From Candidatus Peribacteria bacterium (GTDB taxonomy: Bacteria > Patescibacteriota > Gracilibacteria > Peribacterales > Peribacteraceae): 64,000 nucleotides of DNA. Position 1 is the first letter of the stretch; each line of letters opens with the position of its first letter. This document shows positions 48,812-60,813 of this stretch, one piece after another. The notes beneath the pieces were generated by a model that had not been told where the DNA came from, ran no database searches, and saw nothing but the letters and a program-made list of their open reading frames with translations. The stretch spans positions 572,146 through 636,145 of the forward strand of contig CP082927.1 in the NCBI GenBank assembly GCA_023038255.1, written 5' to 3'. The position numbers and the translations under genes were made by a program.

Positions 48812-50203
48812 TTAAATCGGCAGTGTTCCCATCTTCGTCTTCGGTGCATCGTTTTCTTTGCGATGCTCGCCGACTTCCATCGGTTTGCCCGTCGTCGGAT
48901 CCACTTCCTGCGCGGTGATAATCAGACGGCGTAAGGTTGTTCCAACGGGCGTACAGGTCATCAGAGTCGCTGTGCGCTTGCTGACCGGCTGATCCAGTAC
49001 CGAAACATCACTTGGTCTGATTTCCTTTTTACCCTCAATCACGTAGCGGAATTTATCACCGCCGTAGTAGACCCAGTATTCGTCACCGACATTCAATTCG
49101 CCAAGGCGTGCGAAGATCGATTTAAATTTACCAGGTGCCCATGGGAAGTAAGAGCTATGACCGGTTACAAAGAAGTTTCCCGCCTGCCCCGGACGTGCGG
49201 TGCCCGGATAGTGCACAACACCGTCCTGCAGCGCGCTTTGAATATCCTCTTCCAGCGCAGCCCAATCTTCTTTGAGGAGATCAGCATTTGACGGCACTTC
49301 AATCGGGACATTCAGATTGAGTTTCGGGATAATCAATCGGTTTTCCGGCGGGCCGACTTCCGGCAAAAATGCCGTCAGGTCACCGCCATCACCTCCTGCG
49401 ACTGCAAGAGAGGGGACATGCTTGAGCTTTTCTGAGAGTGAATCTGTTGCATCTGCCAGCTGTTTGCCGGACGTAACGTCTGTAAGAGGAGTCACATACG
49501 ACTGTGCAATCGACCAGAAGCTCTGGAAGTTGAGTGATACGAACAGGACCACAAAGAGTGAGGCAAATGTGCCGCCGAAACGGACAGTATCGAGCAGAAA
49601 AAGTGTGCCGCGGCCGTACTGCTTCGGTTCGTTCTTTCTGCCCGGAACCCACACAGGCTGTGTCAGGAAAGACCACAGACGGATTGTTCCGTTCTTGCAG
49701 GACGCGAGGATCGTGCGGCTCGCCTGAATACTATCCACAATACTTGCCTGGTACTGACGTGAGCCCTCCGACAGCAAATCATTGGTCACTGCAAACATCT
49801 GGCCGCGTACATCGTTCCAGACATGTGCTGCATCCGCGACTTCTTCCTCACTGAAATTTTCATCCGTCCCTGCAAGCATTGCCGCAATCGGATCATGAAT
49901 GACACTGCGGACCGGTTCCTCTTCGTATTCTTTCTCGGGAGTCGCTTCAACGATCTCCTCGGAGACTGTAAGCATCTGCGCCGTATCGTGCTCCGTATCT
50001 TCAACTGCAGTCCACGGGAGCGTCAGGCTTTTTTCCAGCTCTGCGGAATACCAGAGACCTTCTTCCATATCATTGAAGGATTGCTCTGTACGCACAGCAC
50101 GGAACATCTCTTCTTTCGGGTCGTGCGGGCGGGCGCCCGGGAGAATAATATTCCCGTCGCTGTCGACTGTGGCCCGGTGGTTGGCGTCATGTGAAGGTAT
50201 CAA
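48812..50203 (-). CDS. sortase with a long cytoplasmic N-terminal region
   Basis: A 463-aa membrane transpeptidase. Residues 1-200 are cytoplasmic, acidic and of unknown function. One membrane helix (about 208-228) is followed by a linker and a sortase domain from about 290 (RLIIPKLNLNVPIE). The catalytic residues are His349 (FVTGHSSY), Cys417 (LMTCTP) and Arg425 or Arg426 (TTLRRLII). It should cut sorting signals such as the ETGP motifs at 29175-31375. The start is a TTG at 50203, directly behind TATACT at 50207-50212; a downstream start cannot be excluded. Confidence 0.85.
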   Translation of the reverse strand: MIPSHDANHRATVDSDGNIILPGARPHDPKEEMFRAVRTEQSFNDMEEGLWYSAELEKSLTLPWTAVEDTEHDTAQMLTVSEEIVEATPEKEYEEEPVRSVIHDPIAAMLAGTDENFSEEEVADAAHVWNDVRGQMFAVTNDLLSEGSRQYQASIVDSIQASRTILASCKNGTIRLWSFLTQPVWVPGRKNEPKQYGRGTLFLLDTVRFGGTFASLFVVLFVSLNFQSFWSIAQSYVTPLTDVTSGKQLADATDSLSEKLKHVPSLAVAGGDGGDLTAFLPEVGPPENRLIIPKLNLNVPIEVPSNADLLKEDWAALEEDIQSALQDGVVHYPGTARPGQAGNFFVTGHSSYFPWAPGKFKSIFARLGELNVGDEYWVYYGGDKFRYVIEGKKEIRPSDVSVLDQPVSKRTATLMTCTPVGTTLRRLIITAQEVDPTTGKPMEVGEHRKENDAPKTKMGTLPI

Positions 50204-55176: not shown

Positions 55177-55575
55177 ATGCCGACTCCCACCAACACCTCC
55201 ATCGGCGCACTCTTTCTCCGCTGGTATCTCGTGCAGAGACCGGGGGAAATTGTCCGTGAGTACGTGGCGTATGCGGCAGCGTTCGGATCAATGTTTTCGA
55301 TCATCTTCTTATTGAAGACACTCTTTGCACCGTGGAAGAGTATCCGCGACAGCTACCCGACAAAAGGATTTGATCTCACGGCTATTCTACAAACCCTGAC
55401 GCTGAATATCACAGCCCGTGCCATCGGATGCATCATCCGCCTCGGTGCATTGGTGTTCGGTGCTCTTCTGCAGGCTGCGCTCTTCGCGGGCTTCTCGCTC
55501 TACATTCTTCTGTGGCTGGTGTTTCCGTTGGTCGCCTTCCTTGCCATTCCATTCCTTGTCTACGTCTCGCTCTAA
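55177..55575 (+). CDS. small membrane protein preceding the Clp-like ATPase
   Basis: A 132-aa protein beginning MPTPTNTSIGALFLRWYLVQ, with an amphipathic start, one helix at about 30-48 (AAAFGSMFSIIFLLKTLF) and a long hydrophobic region at 85-132 forming two more helices. No family is recognised. It ends directly before the membrane-anchored AAA+ gene (1 bp gap) and is surely cotranscribed, so the two may form one membrane complex. TATAAT is at 55153-55158. Confidence 0.7.
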   Translation: MPTPTNTSIGALFLRWYLVQRPGEIVREYVAYAAAFGSMFSIIFLLKTLFAPWKSIRDSYPTKGFDLTAILQTLTLNITARAIGCIIRLGALVFGALLQAALFAGFSLYILLWLVFPLVAFLAIPFLVYVSL

Positions 55576-57984
55576 ATGCCATTACTGACGCTCAACTTTG
55601 CCGGCACCAAGGAATTCAAGACAGCACGTCTGCGTAAGCTGGCACTGGGACGAGTCTCAATGCTGATCTATGCCGTCATCCTGATTGGTTTTGGCATTGT
55701 GTCGTATCAGACCAATGATCCGTGGCCATTCCTCCTGGCTGCCTTCCTTATCCTGTTTTTCACACATGTGATGAAACTGTTTTTGGAAGAAGAGCTCGAA
55801 AACGATCTGCTTCCTCTGTCGGAAAATGCTCCGGTCGAATCCTGGCTTTCGCACAGCCTTCTTTCTCACCTTGTCCCGAAAAAGAAAACATCCGCTGGCG
55901 ATCTTCTGGAAGCTGCTGTCCATACAACACGCGGACGGTTTTTGCTGGAAGAATTAAGTATTGATGCAAAAGACATGCTGGTGAAATGCCGCGCTGATAT
56001 AGATCAGAACGTCGAGCTGGAGATGTTTTTGAAGTACGCCAAGCAATCACTCACGACGTTCAATGAAACGCGCATTGATGCAAACATTGTGTTGTACCTT
56101 TTCTTCACATTCGTGCATTGCTGCCGCGATCTTCTGAATCAGGCGGACTTGTCTGAAGAGGACCTTGTGGGACTCCTGCACTGGGAACATTTTCATCATC
56201 ATTTCCGTCTGAAGGATAAGCCGTGGAGTCCGCAGGCTATTGCGCACAATAGTTCCCTCGGCCGTTCGTGGATTATGGGGTACACCGATGCACTCGACAT
56301 GCTGACAACGGAAATCGATGCATCACAGGAAACGAGTGGTGAACGCAGCATTGTCATTCACAAAGAAGTGGTTGATGCAGTCCTGCGTATGCTTCTCCGC
56401 TCGAAAGAACGCAATGTGCTTGTTCTCGGAAAAACAGGAACCGGCAAACGCACGCTCATCCGAAATGTCGTGAAAGAACTGCGCAGTCACGAACGTACAA
56501 AGCATCTGCCGTTTACTCGCGTTCTTCAGTTGCAGACAGAAAAGTTGCTCTCAGGAGTGGCAAACCCCGATGCCTTCCTGCTGAATGCACTGAACCGCGC
56601 GCAGCAGAGCGGGCGTTTTATTCTCGTCATCCGCGATCTCTCCCTGCTCCTGCGCTCCGCAGATCAGAACCTGATGGGAGTCCTGAAAAAGTTTTTGGAA
56701 TCATCCAGCATTTCTGTGGTCGGTATTGCAGACACGCAGGATTATCATTCACTGATCAAAACGGATCCGATGCTTGATAGCCTGTTCCAGAAAGTGACTG
56801 TCGAAGATGCAAACGACGAAGAGGCGATGGAAACCTTGATGGCCCATTATTTCGCATTACAGAGCCATAATATCCGCATCACATACAAGGCGCTCAAATC
56901 CATTCTCGACCTCACCAAGCGCTTCCTTTCCATGCGCGGAGGTCTTCCGGGCACTGCGCTCGATGTGATGGACGAAGCGGTCCATCGTGCTGCGGAAAAC
57001 GGGGACACGTTTGTGCGTGAGACCCATGTACGCGAAGTCATTTCCCTCAAGAGCCGTGTGAACGTCCAACAGGTATCGGAAGGGGAGAAGGAAAGACTGC
57101 TCGTACTCGATGAAGCAATGCAGTCACGTGTAATCGGTCAGGACAATGCGATTCATGCAGTCGTCAGCTCACTCAAGCGCGCTCGCATGGATTTGCGTGA
57201 GAGAAAAAAGCCTGTCGGGACATTCCTGTTTTTGGGTCCGACCGGTGTCGGAAAAACGGAAACTGCAAAAGTACTTGCGGAAGAATATTTCGGCGCAAGC
57301 GATGCAATGATCCGTCTGGATATGAATGAGTACAGTCACGCAGACAGCGTCTTTGGTGTCATCGGTGATTCCGGATCTACAGAAGGATTCCTCGCACAGC
57401 GCGTTCAGGACAAACCGTTCTCCCTCATTCTCCTCGATGAAATCGAGAAAGCACATCCGACCGTGCTCAATCTCTTCCTGCAGATTCTGGATGAAGGATT
57501 TTTAACAGACAGCCGCGGTATCCGCACAGATTTCCGCAACACAATCATCATCGCCACATCCAACGCCGGCGCACTCTTCATCCGCGATTTTGTCAAAGAA
57601 CATGCGGAATACGACAAGCAGGCATTCAAAACTGCACTGATTGATTCCATTCTTCAGCAGAAACTTTTCACGCCGGAATTCGTCAACCGTTTTGATGAAC
57701 TCGTTCTGTTTTATCCGCTGTCACTTGAAAACGCCGGACGCGTTGCAACACTGATGATCGATTCCATTATCGGTGACCTGCAGAAACGTCGCGGCATTAC
57801 AGTCCGCCTGGAAGATGGTGTGATTGCCGCTCTCGTGAAGCGCGGTTACAGTGTGGAATTCGGTGCACGTGAAATGCGCCGCACCATCACCGATATGATT
57901 GAAGACTATCTCGCGGATTATCTGCTCCGTCACGACGTCAAGCGCGGCGATGAAATTGTCATCCCGGCTGCAGCCATAGAATAA
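55576..57984 (+). CDS. membrane-anchored ClpB/ClpC-like double AAA+ ATPase
   Basis: An 802-aa protein. Two membrane helices (about 27-68) replace the usual Clp N-domain. A helical region follows (residues 75-260). The D1 module has GKTGTGKR (Lys291), with Arg where Ser/Thr should be, and a Walker B reading ILVIRDLS instead of IDE, so D1 probably does not hydrolyse ATP. D2 is intact: GPTGVGKT (Lys560), LILLDEIEKAHP (Asp621, Glu622) and the sensor-2 region FGAREMRR. No ClpP-docking GF loop is seen, so a disaggregase or unfoldase at the membrane is more likely than a protease partner. Confidence 0.85.
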   Translation: MPLLTLNFAGTKEFKTARLRKLALGRVSMLIYAVILIGFGIVSYQTNDPWPFLLAAFLILFFTHVMKLFLEEELENDLLPLSENAPVESWLSHSLLSHLVPKKKTSAGDLLEAAVHTTRGRFLLEELSIDAKDMLVKCRADIDQNVELEMFLKYAKQSLTTFNETRIDANIVLYLFFTFVHCCRDLLNQADLSEEDLVGLLHWEHFHHHFRLKDKPWSPQAIAHNSSLGRSWIMGYTDALDMLTTEIDASQETSGERSIVIHKEVVDAVLRMLLRSKERNVLVLGKTGTGKRTLIRNVVKELRSHERTKHLPFTRVLQLQTEKLLSGVANPDAFLLNALNRAQQSGRFILVIRDLSLLLRSADQNLMGVLKKFLESSSISVVGIADTQDYHSLIKTDPMLDSLFQKVTVEDANDEEAMETLMAHYFALQSHNIRITYKALKSILDLTKRFLSMRGGLPGTALDVMDEAVHRAAENGDTFVRETHVREVISLKSRVNVQQVSEGEKERLLVLDEAMQSRVIGQDNAIHAVVSSLKRARMDLRERKKPVGTFLFLGPTGVGKTETAKVLAEEYFGASDAMIRLDMNEYSHADSVFGVIGDSGSTEGFLAQRVQDKPFSLILLDEIEKAHPTVLNLFLQILDEGFLTDSRGIRTDFRNTIIIATSNAGALFIRDFVKEHAEYDKQAFKTALIDSILQQKLFTPEFVNRFDELVLFYPLSLENAGRVATLMIDSIIGDLQKRRGITVRLEDGVIAALVKRGYSVEFGAREMRRTITDMIEDYLADYLLRHDVKRGDEIVIPAAAIE

Positions 57985-58031: not shown

Positions 58032-58787
58032 ATGAAGACTTCCCTTATGTATGTTCTGTGTACAGCACTCATTCTTTCGGCATGTGGCGCAGAAAAAAGC
58101 GCTGATGGTGTGAGGATCGTGACCGATACCGTGAACGTCACAGAACAAGCCTACACACTCACACTGCGTGTTCCACAAATAAAAGGATTAAACGACAGCG
58201 CAACGCAGACCGACGTGAATGACCGCCTGAAGAAAATAGTCGATGATGCAAAAACCGGATTCTTAAACGAGATTAAAGACATCGTGATCGAACCCGGTGA
58301 TGATACAAAAAGCGGCCTGACCGTCGACTACAAGGCCGGTACGTTCTCGCAGGATATTCTCAGCATCGTCCTGGAAGCATCACCGTACATGGCTGGTGCC
58401 GCTCATCCGAATCACGTCAGCGTGTCTTTTGTGTACGACGTTGCAACGAAGAAGGAAATCGCATTCACAGATCTCTTCAATACGAATGCGAAATATCTTG
58501 AGCGCCTTTCGACACTCACCATTGAACAACTGATTGCAGAATCCAAGAAAAAAGGAACGTTCTATGCACAGAAAGAGCAGACAATCCGCCAGGGGGCAGG
58601 GCCCAAGGCAGAGAACTTCAGGACATTTTCCATCGAAAACGGCAGTATTGTCCTGACATTCGACCCGTATCAGGTCGGCCCCTACGCTGAAGGCACGCAG
58701 ACCGTCACTCTGTCCAGAGCCCAGATAACCGACGTTTTGAGCAATTACGGCAGGAAATTATTGAGCGAAACGGAGAAGAAGAGTTAA
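58032..58787 (+). CDS. lipoprotein with PdaC/RsiV-like (DUF4163-DUF3298) domains
   Basis: A 251-aa lipoprotein with the lipobox ALILSAC. The mature region starts with a PdaC/DUF4163-like part (YTLTLRVPQIKGLNDSATQT) and ends with a DUF3298-like part (MAGAAHPNHVSVSFVYDVAT, ITFTDLF-type segment IAFTDLFNT, NGSIVLTFDPYQVGPYAEGT). This pair is found in RsiV and peptidoglycan deacetylase PdaC, where it binds lysozyme or glycan. The role here is inferred to be cell-wall or glycan binding. No catalytic domain is attached. Confidence 0.75.
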   Translation: MKTSLMYVLCTALILSACGAEKSADGVRIVTDTVNVTEQAYTLTLRVPQIKGLNDSATQTDVNDRLKKIVDDAKTGFLNEIKDIVIEPGDDTKSGLTVDYKAGTFSQDILSIVLEASPYMAGAAHPNHVSVSFVYDVATKKEIAFTDLFNTNAKYLERLSTLTIEQLIAESKKKGTFYAQKEQTIRQGAGPKAENFRTFSIENGSIVLTFDPYQVGPYAEGTQTVTLSRAQITDVLSNYGRKLLSETEKKS

Positions 58788-58917: not shown

Positions 58918-58956
58918 CATTGAATCCCTGAAAGCAATCAATTATTGTTCCCCACT

Positions 58957-60813
58957 ATGTCACCCACACTTTCCACCGCTGATGTTCTCAGCTCTCTTGA
59001 TGCAGAATTTAGTGAAAACCGAAGCAACGCAGAGCTTTTAGAGGCAAGAATCGAAAATATCCGGAATCCCGGAAAACTTGAAAGTATTGCAAAAGAAATT
59101 GCTGCATCGAGAACAAGAATGTCCGAGCTGCTTATTCACACCAATGAGATCAAAGAAATCAGCAATCCTTTAAAGCAAAAAGAGGACTTCAGTGCAGAAA
59201 TCTGGAATGAGCGTTTTGTACGCCTGGGAGACATCAATGACATCGATGGTCTGTTTCCCGAAGGGGAACAATTGCGCATGCTGATCTGGTCCAGAATGCC
59301 TGACTGCCGTTTCAAGCGTATTCAGGAACTCTACTGTCAGCCGGAGGATTTTTGCGTTCCAAGATTCACCGTCGTCGACAAGAGAATTGTCTTCCAGGCA
59401 AGCACGCGCTTTGATGATTTGTCTCTGGACCCCATCCTGATGGATATCAATCTTGTTGCCGATTCCCTTCTGGAAAAGCTCCAGATAGCAGAGTTCCCGG
59501 AGGAAGACCCAGTGGAGCACCTGAAAATGAAAGCTGCGGCACTTCCACGATTCAAAGAAATTCTGGAAAGAGCGACGCAACTCTCTCCGCGCAACAAGCG
59601 TATTTTGATTGTGGCATCACAGCACAACCAGACCGAGAGCATTGAAGCAGATGTTCGTGGTGCACCGAATGCGGTGGAAGGGGCAATAATCTACCTGAAA
59701 ACAGATGACAGAAAAAAATCACCGACAAAAAAGAAACAGTTTGAAAGACGGTCTGCACAGTTCTTCGAAAATGGATATGACGCCAAGCGCAAAACACATC
59801 ACGAAGAACTTGCGTATAGCAATGAAGTATCAAAGCTTTCAAAGCTCATTGTCAGAATCAAAAACATCAATGGTGAAATTGATGCACAATGGAAAGCCGA
59901 GGCTGCGGATTCTGTAAAACAGGATATGCGCAGTAGAGCGAATGAATTATTCGGGGAATGCGCGGAGACACTGCAATTCTGCTCTAATTTGTACAAAGTA
60001 AAAGCGCGCACCCGTGTTGCCACTATTAAGAGTCATATCAGTGAAGACGTCACAAAAAAGCCGAATATCTCTGCAGTCATGACCTGTATGACATCTGCCA
60101 GAGAAGATCTGCAGAAGCGTAACGAGACGGACATTGTCGAAAAAAGCGGCTTCAATCAGAATGATCGCGCCGGACTCCAGACTCAGCTGAAAAAACATGA
60201 GGATATCATTGCGGAGTACGGTGCAGGAATTATGTCTGTTGCCAAAAGCTTTGCAGACAATCCGGATATTTTTGAGCCGGATTATTTATCTGCTGATGAA
60301 ATTCCGGTCAAAGTGCAGGAATTCCTGATGCAGGTACGTCCTGAACTTCTCGATGAAGTCATCATGGCGCCGTTTGTGACCTATGCGTCGAAACTAAAAG
60401 AAAAATACGATGCACTCGGGGCGGCAGCATCTATGCAAGACAGGGAAGCAGCTGCGCAGATTCTGATTCAGATGCATGTCATCAAAAAGTTTTCAGATGT
60501 GCAGAAGGTATTCGAAAAGATTAAAGAAAGCATCATCGATCCGCGCTTTGTGTCTGTGGATGTCATTCGAACATTTATCACGGATCTGAACCGGGAATTC
60601 TTTGCATTCCAGATTTTCGGAGAGACGATTGTCGAGAGTTACGTTCCTGCCTACGAAAGCATGCGATCCTCTTTGGCTGTCATGGAAAAAAGACTGACAC
60701 ACTATGAAGCACACAAGGCGATGACCATTGAAGAGCGCACGGAAATGTACGGACGTATGAAGGAATACCTGGATAGGTTTGATATTCCCACAATTGTTGG
60801 AGGTTTTGAGTAA
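58957..60813 (+). CDS. large helical hypothetical protein
   Basis: A 618-aa protein, not recognised. It is almost entirely helical and charged, with coiled-coil-like stretches (LEARIENIRNPGKLESIAKE, KLSKLIVRIKNINGEIDAQW, YESMRSSLAVMEKRLTHYEA). No signal peptide or membrane helix is present. Lys/Arg are frequent in the middle (DDRKKSPTKKKQFERRSA). It resembles no enzyme in motif terms and could be structural or a DNA- or protein-binding factor. The start at 58957 (ATG) is preferred over TTG at 58945. Confidence 0.65.
   Translation: MSPTLSTADVLSSLDAEFSENRSNAELLEARIENIRNPGKLESIAKEIAASRTRMSELLIHTNEIKEISNPLKQKEDFSAEIWNERFVRLGDINDIDGLFPEGEQLRMLIWSRMPDCRFKRIQELYCQPEDFCVPRFTVVDKRIVFQASTRFDDLSLDPILMDINLVADSLLEKLQIAEFPEEDPVEHLKMKAAALPRFKEILERATQLSPRNKRILIVASQHNQTESIEADVRGAPNAVEGAIIYLKTDDRKKSPTKKKQFERRSAQFFENGYDAKRKTHHEELAYSNEVSKLSKLIVRIKNINGEIDAQWKAEAADSVKQDMRSRANELFGECAETLQFCSNLYKVKARTRVATIKSHISEDVTKKPNISAVMTCMTSAREDLQKRNETDIVEKSGFNQNDRAGLQTQLKKHEDIIAEYGAGIMSVAKSFADNPDIFEPDYLSADEIPVKVQEFLMQVRPELLDEVIMAPFVTYASKLKEKYDALGAAASMQDREAAAQILIQMHVIKKFSDVQKVFEKIKESIIDPRFVSVDVIRTFITDLNREFFAFQIFGETIVESYVPAYESMRSSLAVMEKRLTHYEAHKAMTIEERTEMYGRMKEYLDRFDIPTIVGGFE

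Follow-up and report, generated by a model that had tools for sequence, protein, structure and literature searches.

The window, the whole stretch of 64,000 nucleotides, carries on its plus strand two directly abutting genes, both confirmed as open reading frames, which encode a small membrane protein, P0002, and a large Clp-type ATPase, P0001:

55177..55575, plus strand: P0002, a membrane protein of 132 aa and the constant partner of P0001 (open reading frame; conserved motif FSxxxLLKTLFxPWK)
55576..57984, plus strand: P0001, a membrane-anchored two-domain Clp/HSP100 AAA+ protein of 802 aa (open reading frame, Pfam, AlphaFold2)

The TAA stop codon of P0002 (55573-55575) is immediately followed by the ATG start codon of P0001 (55576), an intergenic gap of 0 nt. 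An initial reading of the locus from its letters alone, here called the sequence-only reading, had joined the gene for a 132-aa membrane protein to the ATPase gene 1 bp upstream; the pairing holds and the distance is corrected to 0 nt. Scanning for promoters and terminators gave signals at chance level only. The genome of the window is a single contig of 1,239,242 bases, and the corresponding locus of a Candidatus Peribacteria metagenome-assembled genome is 64% identical to that of the window. Candidatus Peregrinibacteriota are part of the Candidate Phyla Radiation. It is within Candidatus Peregrinibacteriota that Candidatus Peribacteria are placed (NCBI taxonomy).

Of other genes in the window, the next one after P0001 on the same strand (58032-58787) encodes a putative lipoprotein in which DUF3298 and PdaC domains are recognized; for an open reading frame of 622 aa further downstream (58945-60813, plus strand), even the best Pfam match, KaiA (E 0.14), does not rise above chance. 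On the minus strand, 48812-50203 encodes a protein that has a Sortase domain (PF04203, E 4.2e-22) preceded by a long extension at the N-terminus.

Architecture of P0001

P0001 is recognized by the Pfam families AAA_2 (147.1 bits, E 6.4e-43) and ClpB_D2-small (64.8 bits, E 7.5e-18), both above cut-off. Its AlphaFold2 model, derived from 77 aligned homologues (mean pLDDT 89.1, pTM 0.80), is composed of a helical hairpin (26-46/50-74), an all-helical domain (87-211), a first AAA+ module D1 (approximately 255-478) and a second module D2 (502-797). The closest solved structures are ClpC and ClpB, and Foldseek and VIA match the model to ClpC, ClpB and ClpA with Z of approximately 30-35. The part ahead of the AAA+ modules comprises two features:

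55651..55797, plus strand: N-terminal transmembrane hairpin, residues 26-74 (hydropathy; model helices 26-46 and 50-74)
55834..56208, plus strand: divergent Clp N-domain, residues 87-211 (hhalign; structural alignment to a ClpC model)

Conservation was assessed in an alignment of 100 relatives, of which 43, with the window included, belong to its family and 57 to other parts of the phylum. Hydropathy locates the hydrophobic segments of P0001 at residues 19-37 and 48-72, and a hydrophobic hairpin is present in 41 of the 43 family rows, the remaining two being cut at the N-terminus. All 57 phylum rows possess a hydrophobic hairpin or segment ahead of the N-domain, with fusions counted via the hydrophobic part of P0002 itself. 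Membrane anchoring is thus supported by conservation across the 100 sequences, and no soluble form, which would have spoken against the sequence-only reading, was seen among the 43 relatives of the family.

That reading had also seen two membrane helices in place of the Clp N-domain. The two helices are there, but a replacement is rejected, as the helices precede a divergent Clp N-domain which has been kept behind the hairpin. In a profile-profile comparison of 99 family and phylum sequences with 22 canonical N-domains, hhalign assigned a probability of 96.2% (E 2.1e-9), as compared with 0.17% for the best of 20 column-shuffled controls. From its residue 1 onwards, a ClpC model aligns to residues 85-802 of the P0001 model with an rmsd of 19.6, a value taken to reflect differing angles between the modelled domains. 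For the single P0001 sequence, Clp_N was not among the matches listed (25 of 47 Pfam families). In canonical Clp proteins, the N-domain is the site for substrates and adaptors.

A degenerate D1 module

Canonical behaviour was defined by 19 Clp proteins encoded by genomes of the window's class, its family among them, and three references, namely the ClpB and the ClpC of the window's own genome and a Lachnospiraceae ClpC. Measured against these, D1 of P0001 has lost the hallmarks of a working AAA+ module:

56338..57009, plus strand: degenerate D1 AAA+ module, residues 255-478 (alignment to D1 of ClpC/ClpB; model)
56428..56454, plus strand: remnant of D1 Walker A, GKTGTGKRT
56554..56571, plus strand: site of the D1 pore loop, GVANPD (canonical KYRG)
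56620..56637, plus strand: remnant of D1 Walker B, ILVIRD
56776..56787, plus strand: site of the D1 arginine fingers, DSLF (canonical ERRF)

The arginine after the Walker A lysine and RD instead of DE in Walker B, both pointed out in the sequence-only reading, are read directly from GKTGTGKRT and ILVIRD. GK[ST] is retained in 3/43 rows of the family and 15/57 of the phylum, DE in 0/43 and 6/57, respectively, and close relatives with an intact D1, which would have contradicted that reading, were not encountered in the family. Walker A and Walker B are both intact in none of the 43 family and in three of the 57 phylum rows, none of the latter with a finger arginine, and the paired arginines occur in 0/43 and 2/57 rows; a working Walker A, a working Walker B and paired fingers are found together in no row of the 100. 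A non-catalytic D1 is supported by this pattern across the 100 sequences, while the three phylum members that keep both Walker motifs suggest that in part of the lineages D1 could have retained nucleotide binding. The KYRG motif is absent from D1 of all 100 relatives, as opposed to its presence in 19/19 canonical Clp proteins and 3/3 references, and some aromatic residue is found in the D1 loop of 13/100.

A catalytically conserved D2 module with an altered pore loop

57079..57966, plus strand: D2 AAA+ module, residues 502-797, with intact catalytic residues (active-site conservation)
57235..57258, plus strand: D2 Walker A, GPTGVGKT (K and T invariant)
57364..57390, plus strand: site of D2 pore loop 1, shortened to GDSGSTEGF (canonical GYVGY)
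57424..57441, plus strand: D2 Walker B, LILLDE

Residues K560, T561, D621, E622, N663, R705 and R765 of D2 are each conserved in 100/100 relatives, and the role of D2 as the sole motor, as initially proposed, is backed by this conservation. An additional indication comes from a 1253-aa relative of P0001 (L140; G402:C20, 3372-7130, plus strand), in which an intein of approximately 418 aa with an endonuclease domain (LAGLIDADG, 1.8e-22; Intein_splicing, 6.1e-17) is inserted within the D2 Walker A motif (GPTGVGK / T). The P-loop is a site at which inteins are typically found in functional ATPases, and the insertion thus fits a working ATPase site in D2.

The description of D2 as intact applies to its catalytic residues, but not to pore loop 1, and a fully canonical D2 is rejected on this ground. 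A GYVG-type motif is present in 0/100 relatives versus 22/22 canonical Clp proteins (19/19 plus 3/3 references). The length of the loop site varies in the relatives, mostly between 6 and 13 residues. When the 293 eight-residue windows of D2 are ranked from most to least variable, the loop comes 11th in the relatives and 244th in canonical Clp proteins. A loop of such variable length and sequence is not selected as a grip. Some aromatic residue is nevertheless found in the shortened D2 loop of 19/100 relatives, which, together with the aromatic residues in D1 loops, leaves room for a non-canonical grip, and a moderate conservation of pore loop 2 in D2 counts against a non-threading reading. Taken together, we are highly confident of the anatomy of P0001 as a protein consisting of a hairpin, a divergent Clp N-domain, a degenerate D1 and a conserved D2.

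The partner protein P0002

P0002 is modelled with a pLDDT of 93 as a small membrane protein of helical structure that shows no AAA+ fold. Foldseek retrieved no match in the PDB below E 2.7, and an assignment of function by fold was dropped. Equally, P0002 of the window matches no Pfam family at E<=0.01, and a local match to PrgI (E 0.45) was set aside as chance.

The relation of the two proteins was inspected at 60 loci from the 124 non-family genomes matched by the family P0002 profile, mostly the strongest matches. The AAA+ gene lies immediately downstream of the P0002 gene at 49/60 loci, and the two are fused in one open reading frame at 11/60. Five of the 11 fusions lack a hydrophobic segment between their P0002 portion and the N-domain, which makes the P0002 portion the sole anchor. 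The junction spans at most 30 nt in 41/49 adjacent non-family pairs and at most 10 nt in 35/40 family pairs, that of the window included, whereby the lengths are approximate as starts in the relatives were set by a nearest-Met rule. A search for the two-gene pair, as had been suggested for CPR, shows it to be widespread in the phylum, with 60/60 inspected non-family loci either paired or fused, and its standing as a two-gene unit is borne out by the conserved pairing. The gene pair is real and conserved, and no artefact.

Distribution, neighbourhood and phylogeny

Full or partial relatives of P0001 are encoded by 46/68 genomes of the window's family. P0002 homologues are found in 45 of 115 genomes of relatives, all of them in the family and all also with P0001, and P0002 is absent from 47/47 genomes of the same class outside the family (G068-G114), where it has probably been lost or replaced, given its commonness elsewhere in the phylum. 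Several of these 47 genomes display in-frame TGA codons in conserved genes, as expected of a reassigned code. In the phylum, the family P0002 profile matched 136/379 genomes and the profile widened with phylum members 171/379, the weakest matches being partial. A scan of 84,980 species with short peptide patterns, too insensitive to show absence, recovered two members and one canonical ClpC.

Not all loci entered the counts. L038 and L039 are partial copies of the window and of L064, L061, L042, L047 and other partial loci are split or cut, L124, L143 and L146 are cut at contig ends, and L174 has no open reading frame with the searched motif. The P0001 relatives L059 (G031) and L061 (G058) are split over two overlapping frames, due to either an assembly error or a frameshifted gene. 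Genome G009 harbours two different P0001/P0002 pairs on contigs C37 and C56, with 57% and 47% P0001 identity to the window's, respectively, so that either the pair is duplicated or the bin is mixed.

No further neighbour gene is conserved phylum-wide. The largest cluster of neighbours outside the family comprises seven phylum loci, all on the opposite strand, and within the family it is also on the opposite strand that genes recur which we take, partly from the window's own genes, to be of the tmk and folD type and groEL/groES. A larger operon that would reveal a pathway is therefore rejected.

A quick tree of D2 (121 rows) separates the 22 canonical ClpB/ClpC sequences from all 99 members with 99% SH-aLRT support; the tree is rooted at the midpoint only, and L140 was left out because of its intein. 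This split of the sequences fits a single ancient origin of a membrane-anchored Clp paralogue.

Discussion

P0001 shares with ClpC, ClpA and ClpB the domain order N-D1-D2, the fold and the C-terminal D2-small domain as well as the Walker, sensor and arginine-finger residues of D2. It differs by the transmembrane hairpin added before the N-domain, the constant membrane partner P0002, the non-catalytic D1 and the loss of both aromatic pore loops. Among the features of class I Clp/HSP100 proteins, two Clp-type AAA+ modules, the D2-small domain and the Clp N-domain are present; working Walker A/B motifs in both modules and the KYRG and GYVG pore loops are not. The initial designation as ClpB-like is appropriate as to the Clp type and loose as to ClpB itself, since no insert between D1 and D2 provides the coiled-coil middle domain of ClpB and D2 clusters neither with ClpB nor with ClpC. 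P0001 scores 337.3 bits with the ClpB model TIGR03346 (cut-off 1232.1) and 337.8 with the ClpA equivalog model (cut-off 993.15).

Torsins possess one AAA+ domain, and an AAA+-like partner supplies their arginine finger. A review (PMC5425593) and a further paper (PMC6646356) describe them as Clp/HSP100-related, membrane-associated AAA+ proteins without aromatic pore loops, which have the membrane partner LAP1/LULL1; according to the review, Torsin misses an arginine finger of its own and is located in the ER and the perinuclear space. P0001 resembles Torsins in being Clp-related, linked to the membrane, devoid of canonical pore loops and provided with a membrane partner. In contrast to Torsin, it combines two AAA+ domains with an arginine finger of its own, R705, and P0002, unlike the Torsin partner, is small, helical and without an AAA+ fold. 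An identity of P0001 with Torsin is rejected on the basis of the two modules, the invariant R705 and a Pfam Torsin score of 22.2 bits against a cut-off of 27. As an analogy, Torsin nevertheless appears to be the nearest functional parallel, and the mode of action proposed for Torsins may come closest to that of P0001.

In the open-access full-text literature, no description of the P0001/P0002 pair was found; the main text of a paper on the protein families of these bacteria (PMC6744442) mentions neither Clp nor AAA.

How might such a protein work? As neither ring possesses aromatic pulling loops, the D2 cycle most likely does not serve processive threading. We consider it an evenly poised proposition that P0001 is a membrane-anchored ancient Clp paralogue, powered by D2, which remodels a P0002-based membrane complex instead of threading polypeptides. 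P0001, as an ancient ClpB/ClpC paralogue, and P0002 would then be in mutual contact and make up a machine of two proteins at the cytoplasmic membrane, in which D1 would provide the non-catalytic scaffold of a putative ring. D2 would bind and presumably hydrolyse ATP, its stroke probably reaching the membrane by way of D1 and the N-domain; there, P0002 may be the base or the client, with potential further clients. Such a machine may assemble, disassemble or reshape a membrane complex.

Alternatively, P0001 could be an unfoldase anchored in the membrane, with a D2 that continues to thread membrane or secreted proteins and grips them by non-canonical loops. The Clp fold throughout the protein, with its structural similarity to ClpB, ClpC and ClpA, the complete D2 active site, the retained though divergent N-domain and the aromatic residues in some of the loops agree with threading, but GYVG and KYRG are each absent in 100/100 relatives and loop length and sequence are unconstrained. 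The extraction of membrane or secreted proteins by an unfoldase, as put forward in the sequence-only reading, is weakened by the absence of these two grips, and we regard a threading function as doubtful. An ATP-binding ring with a structural or regulatory role is considered improbable. Acting as a switch or scaffold with little hydrolysis, it would position P0002 or other membrane proteins, which is compatible with a degenerate D1 and the loss of both grips; the Walker B glutamate, sensor 1 asparagine, arginine finger and sensor 2 arginine in 100/100 relatives, however, exceed what mere ATP binding needs.

A similarity also exists with FtsH. FtsH, a classical AAA protein with a zinc peptidase, carries membrane helices ahead of a cytoplasm-facing AAA+ motor. 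P0001 shares the membrane helices preceding the AAA+ motor, but M41 peptidase is not among its matches listed (25 of 47 Pfam families). The window's genome encodes its own FtsH, with a single M41 match at C1:274753-275313, and since FtsH is present in 41/46 family genomes with P0001 and 20/22 without, P0001 as a substitute for a missing FtsH is rejected. That P0001 serves as the ATPase component of a membrane-bound protease and feeds ClpP or another peptidase is very improbable for the same independence of FtsH from the pair. ClpP, like FtsH, is encoded in the genome, yet the same genome also has a canonical ClpC with a docking loop of the IG[FLY] type. In P0001 and its relatives, this IGF/IGL-type ClpP-docking loop, a ClpA/ClpC feature, is missing (0/43 in the family and 0/57 in the phylum versus 10/19 canonical Clp proteins), as already noticed in the window's sequence, and neither a peptidase domain nor a conserved adjoining peptidase gene was seen. 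A decaying, functionless ClpB/ClpC copy, as the eroded D1 motifs might indicate, can practically be dismissed in view of the phylum-wide retention, the D2 active sites conserved in 100/100 relatives and the constant partner.

Returning to the remodelling of a P0002-based membrane complex, a more specific and tentative version is that P0001 represents a bacterial counterpart of Torsin. As a membrane Clp ATPase without pore loops, with a dedicated membrane partner and ancient in the phylum, it might remodel the membrane or a membrane complex by rearrangement of rings or polymers and not by polypeptide threading, possibly for the benefit of the cell envelope in ultrasmall bacteria with a symbiotic way of life. 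Textbooks present Clp/HSP100 rings as motors for threading. A branch found throughout the phylum which has kept one motor, shed both sets of grips, settled in the membrane and gained a constant partner would offer a natural test of ring uses without threading, as for Torsins. Moreover, the pair gives a handle on P0002, a protein without a Pfam family, in bacteria about whose cell biology little is known.
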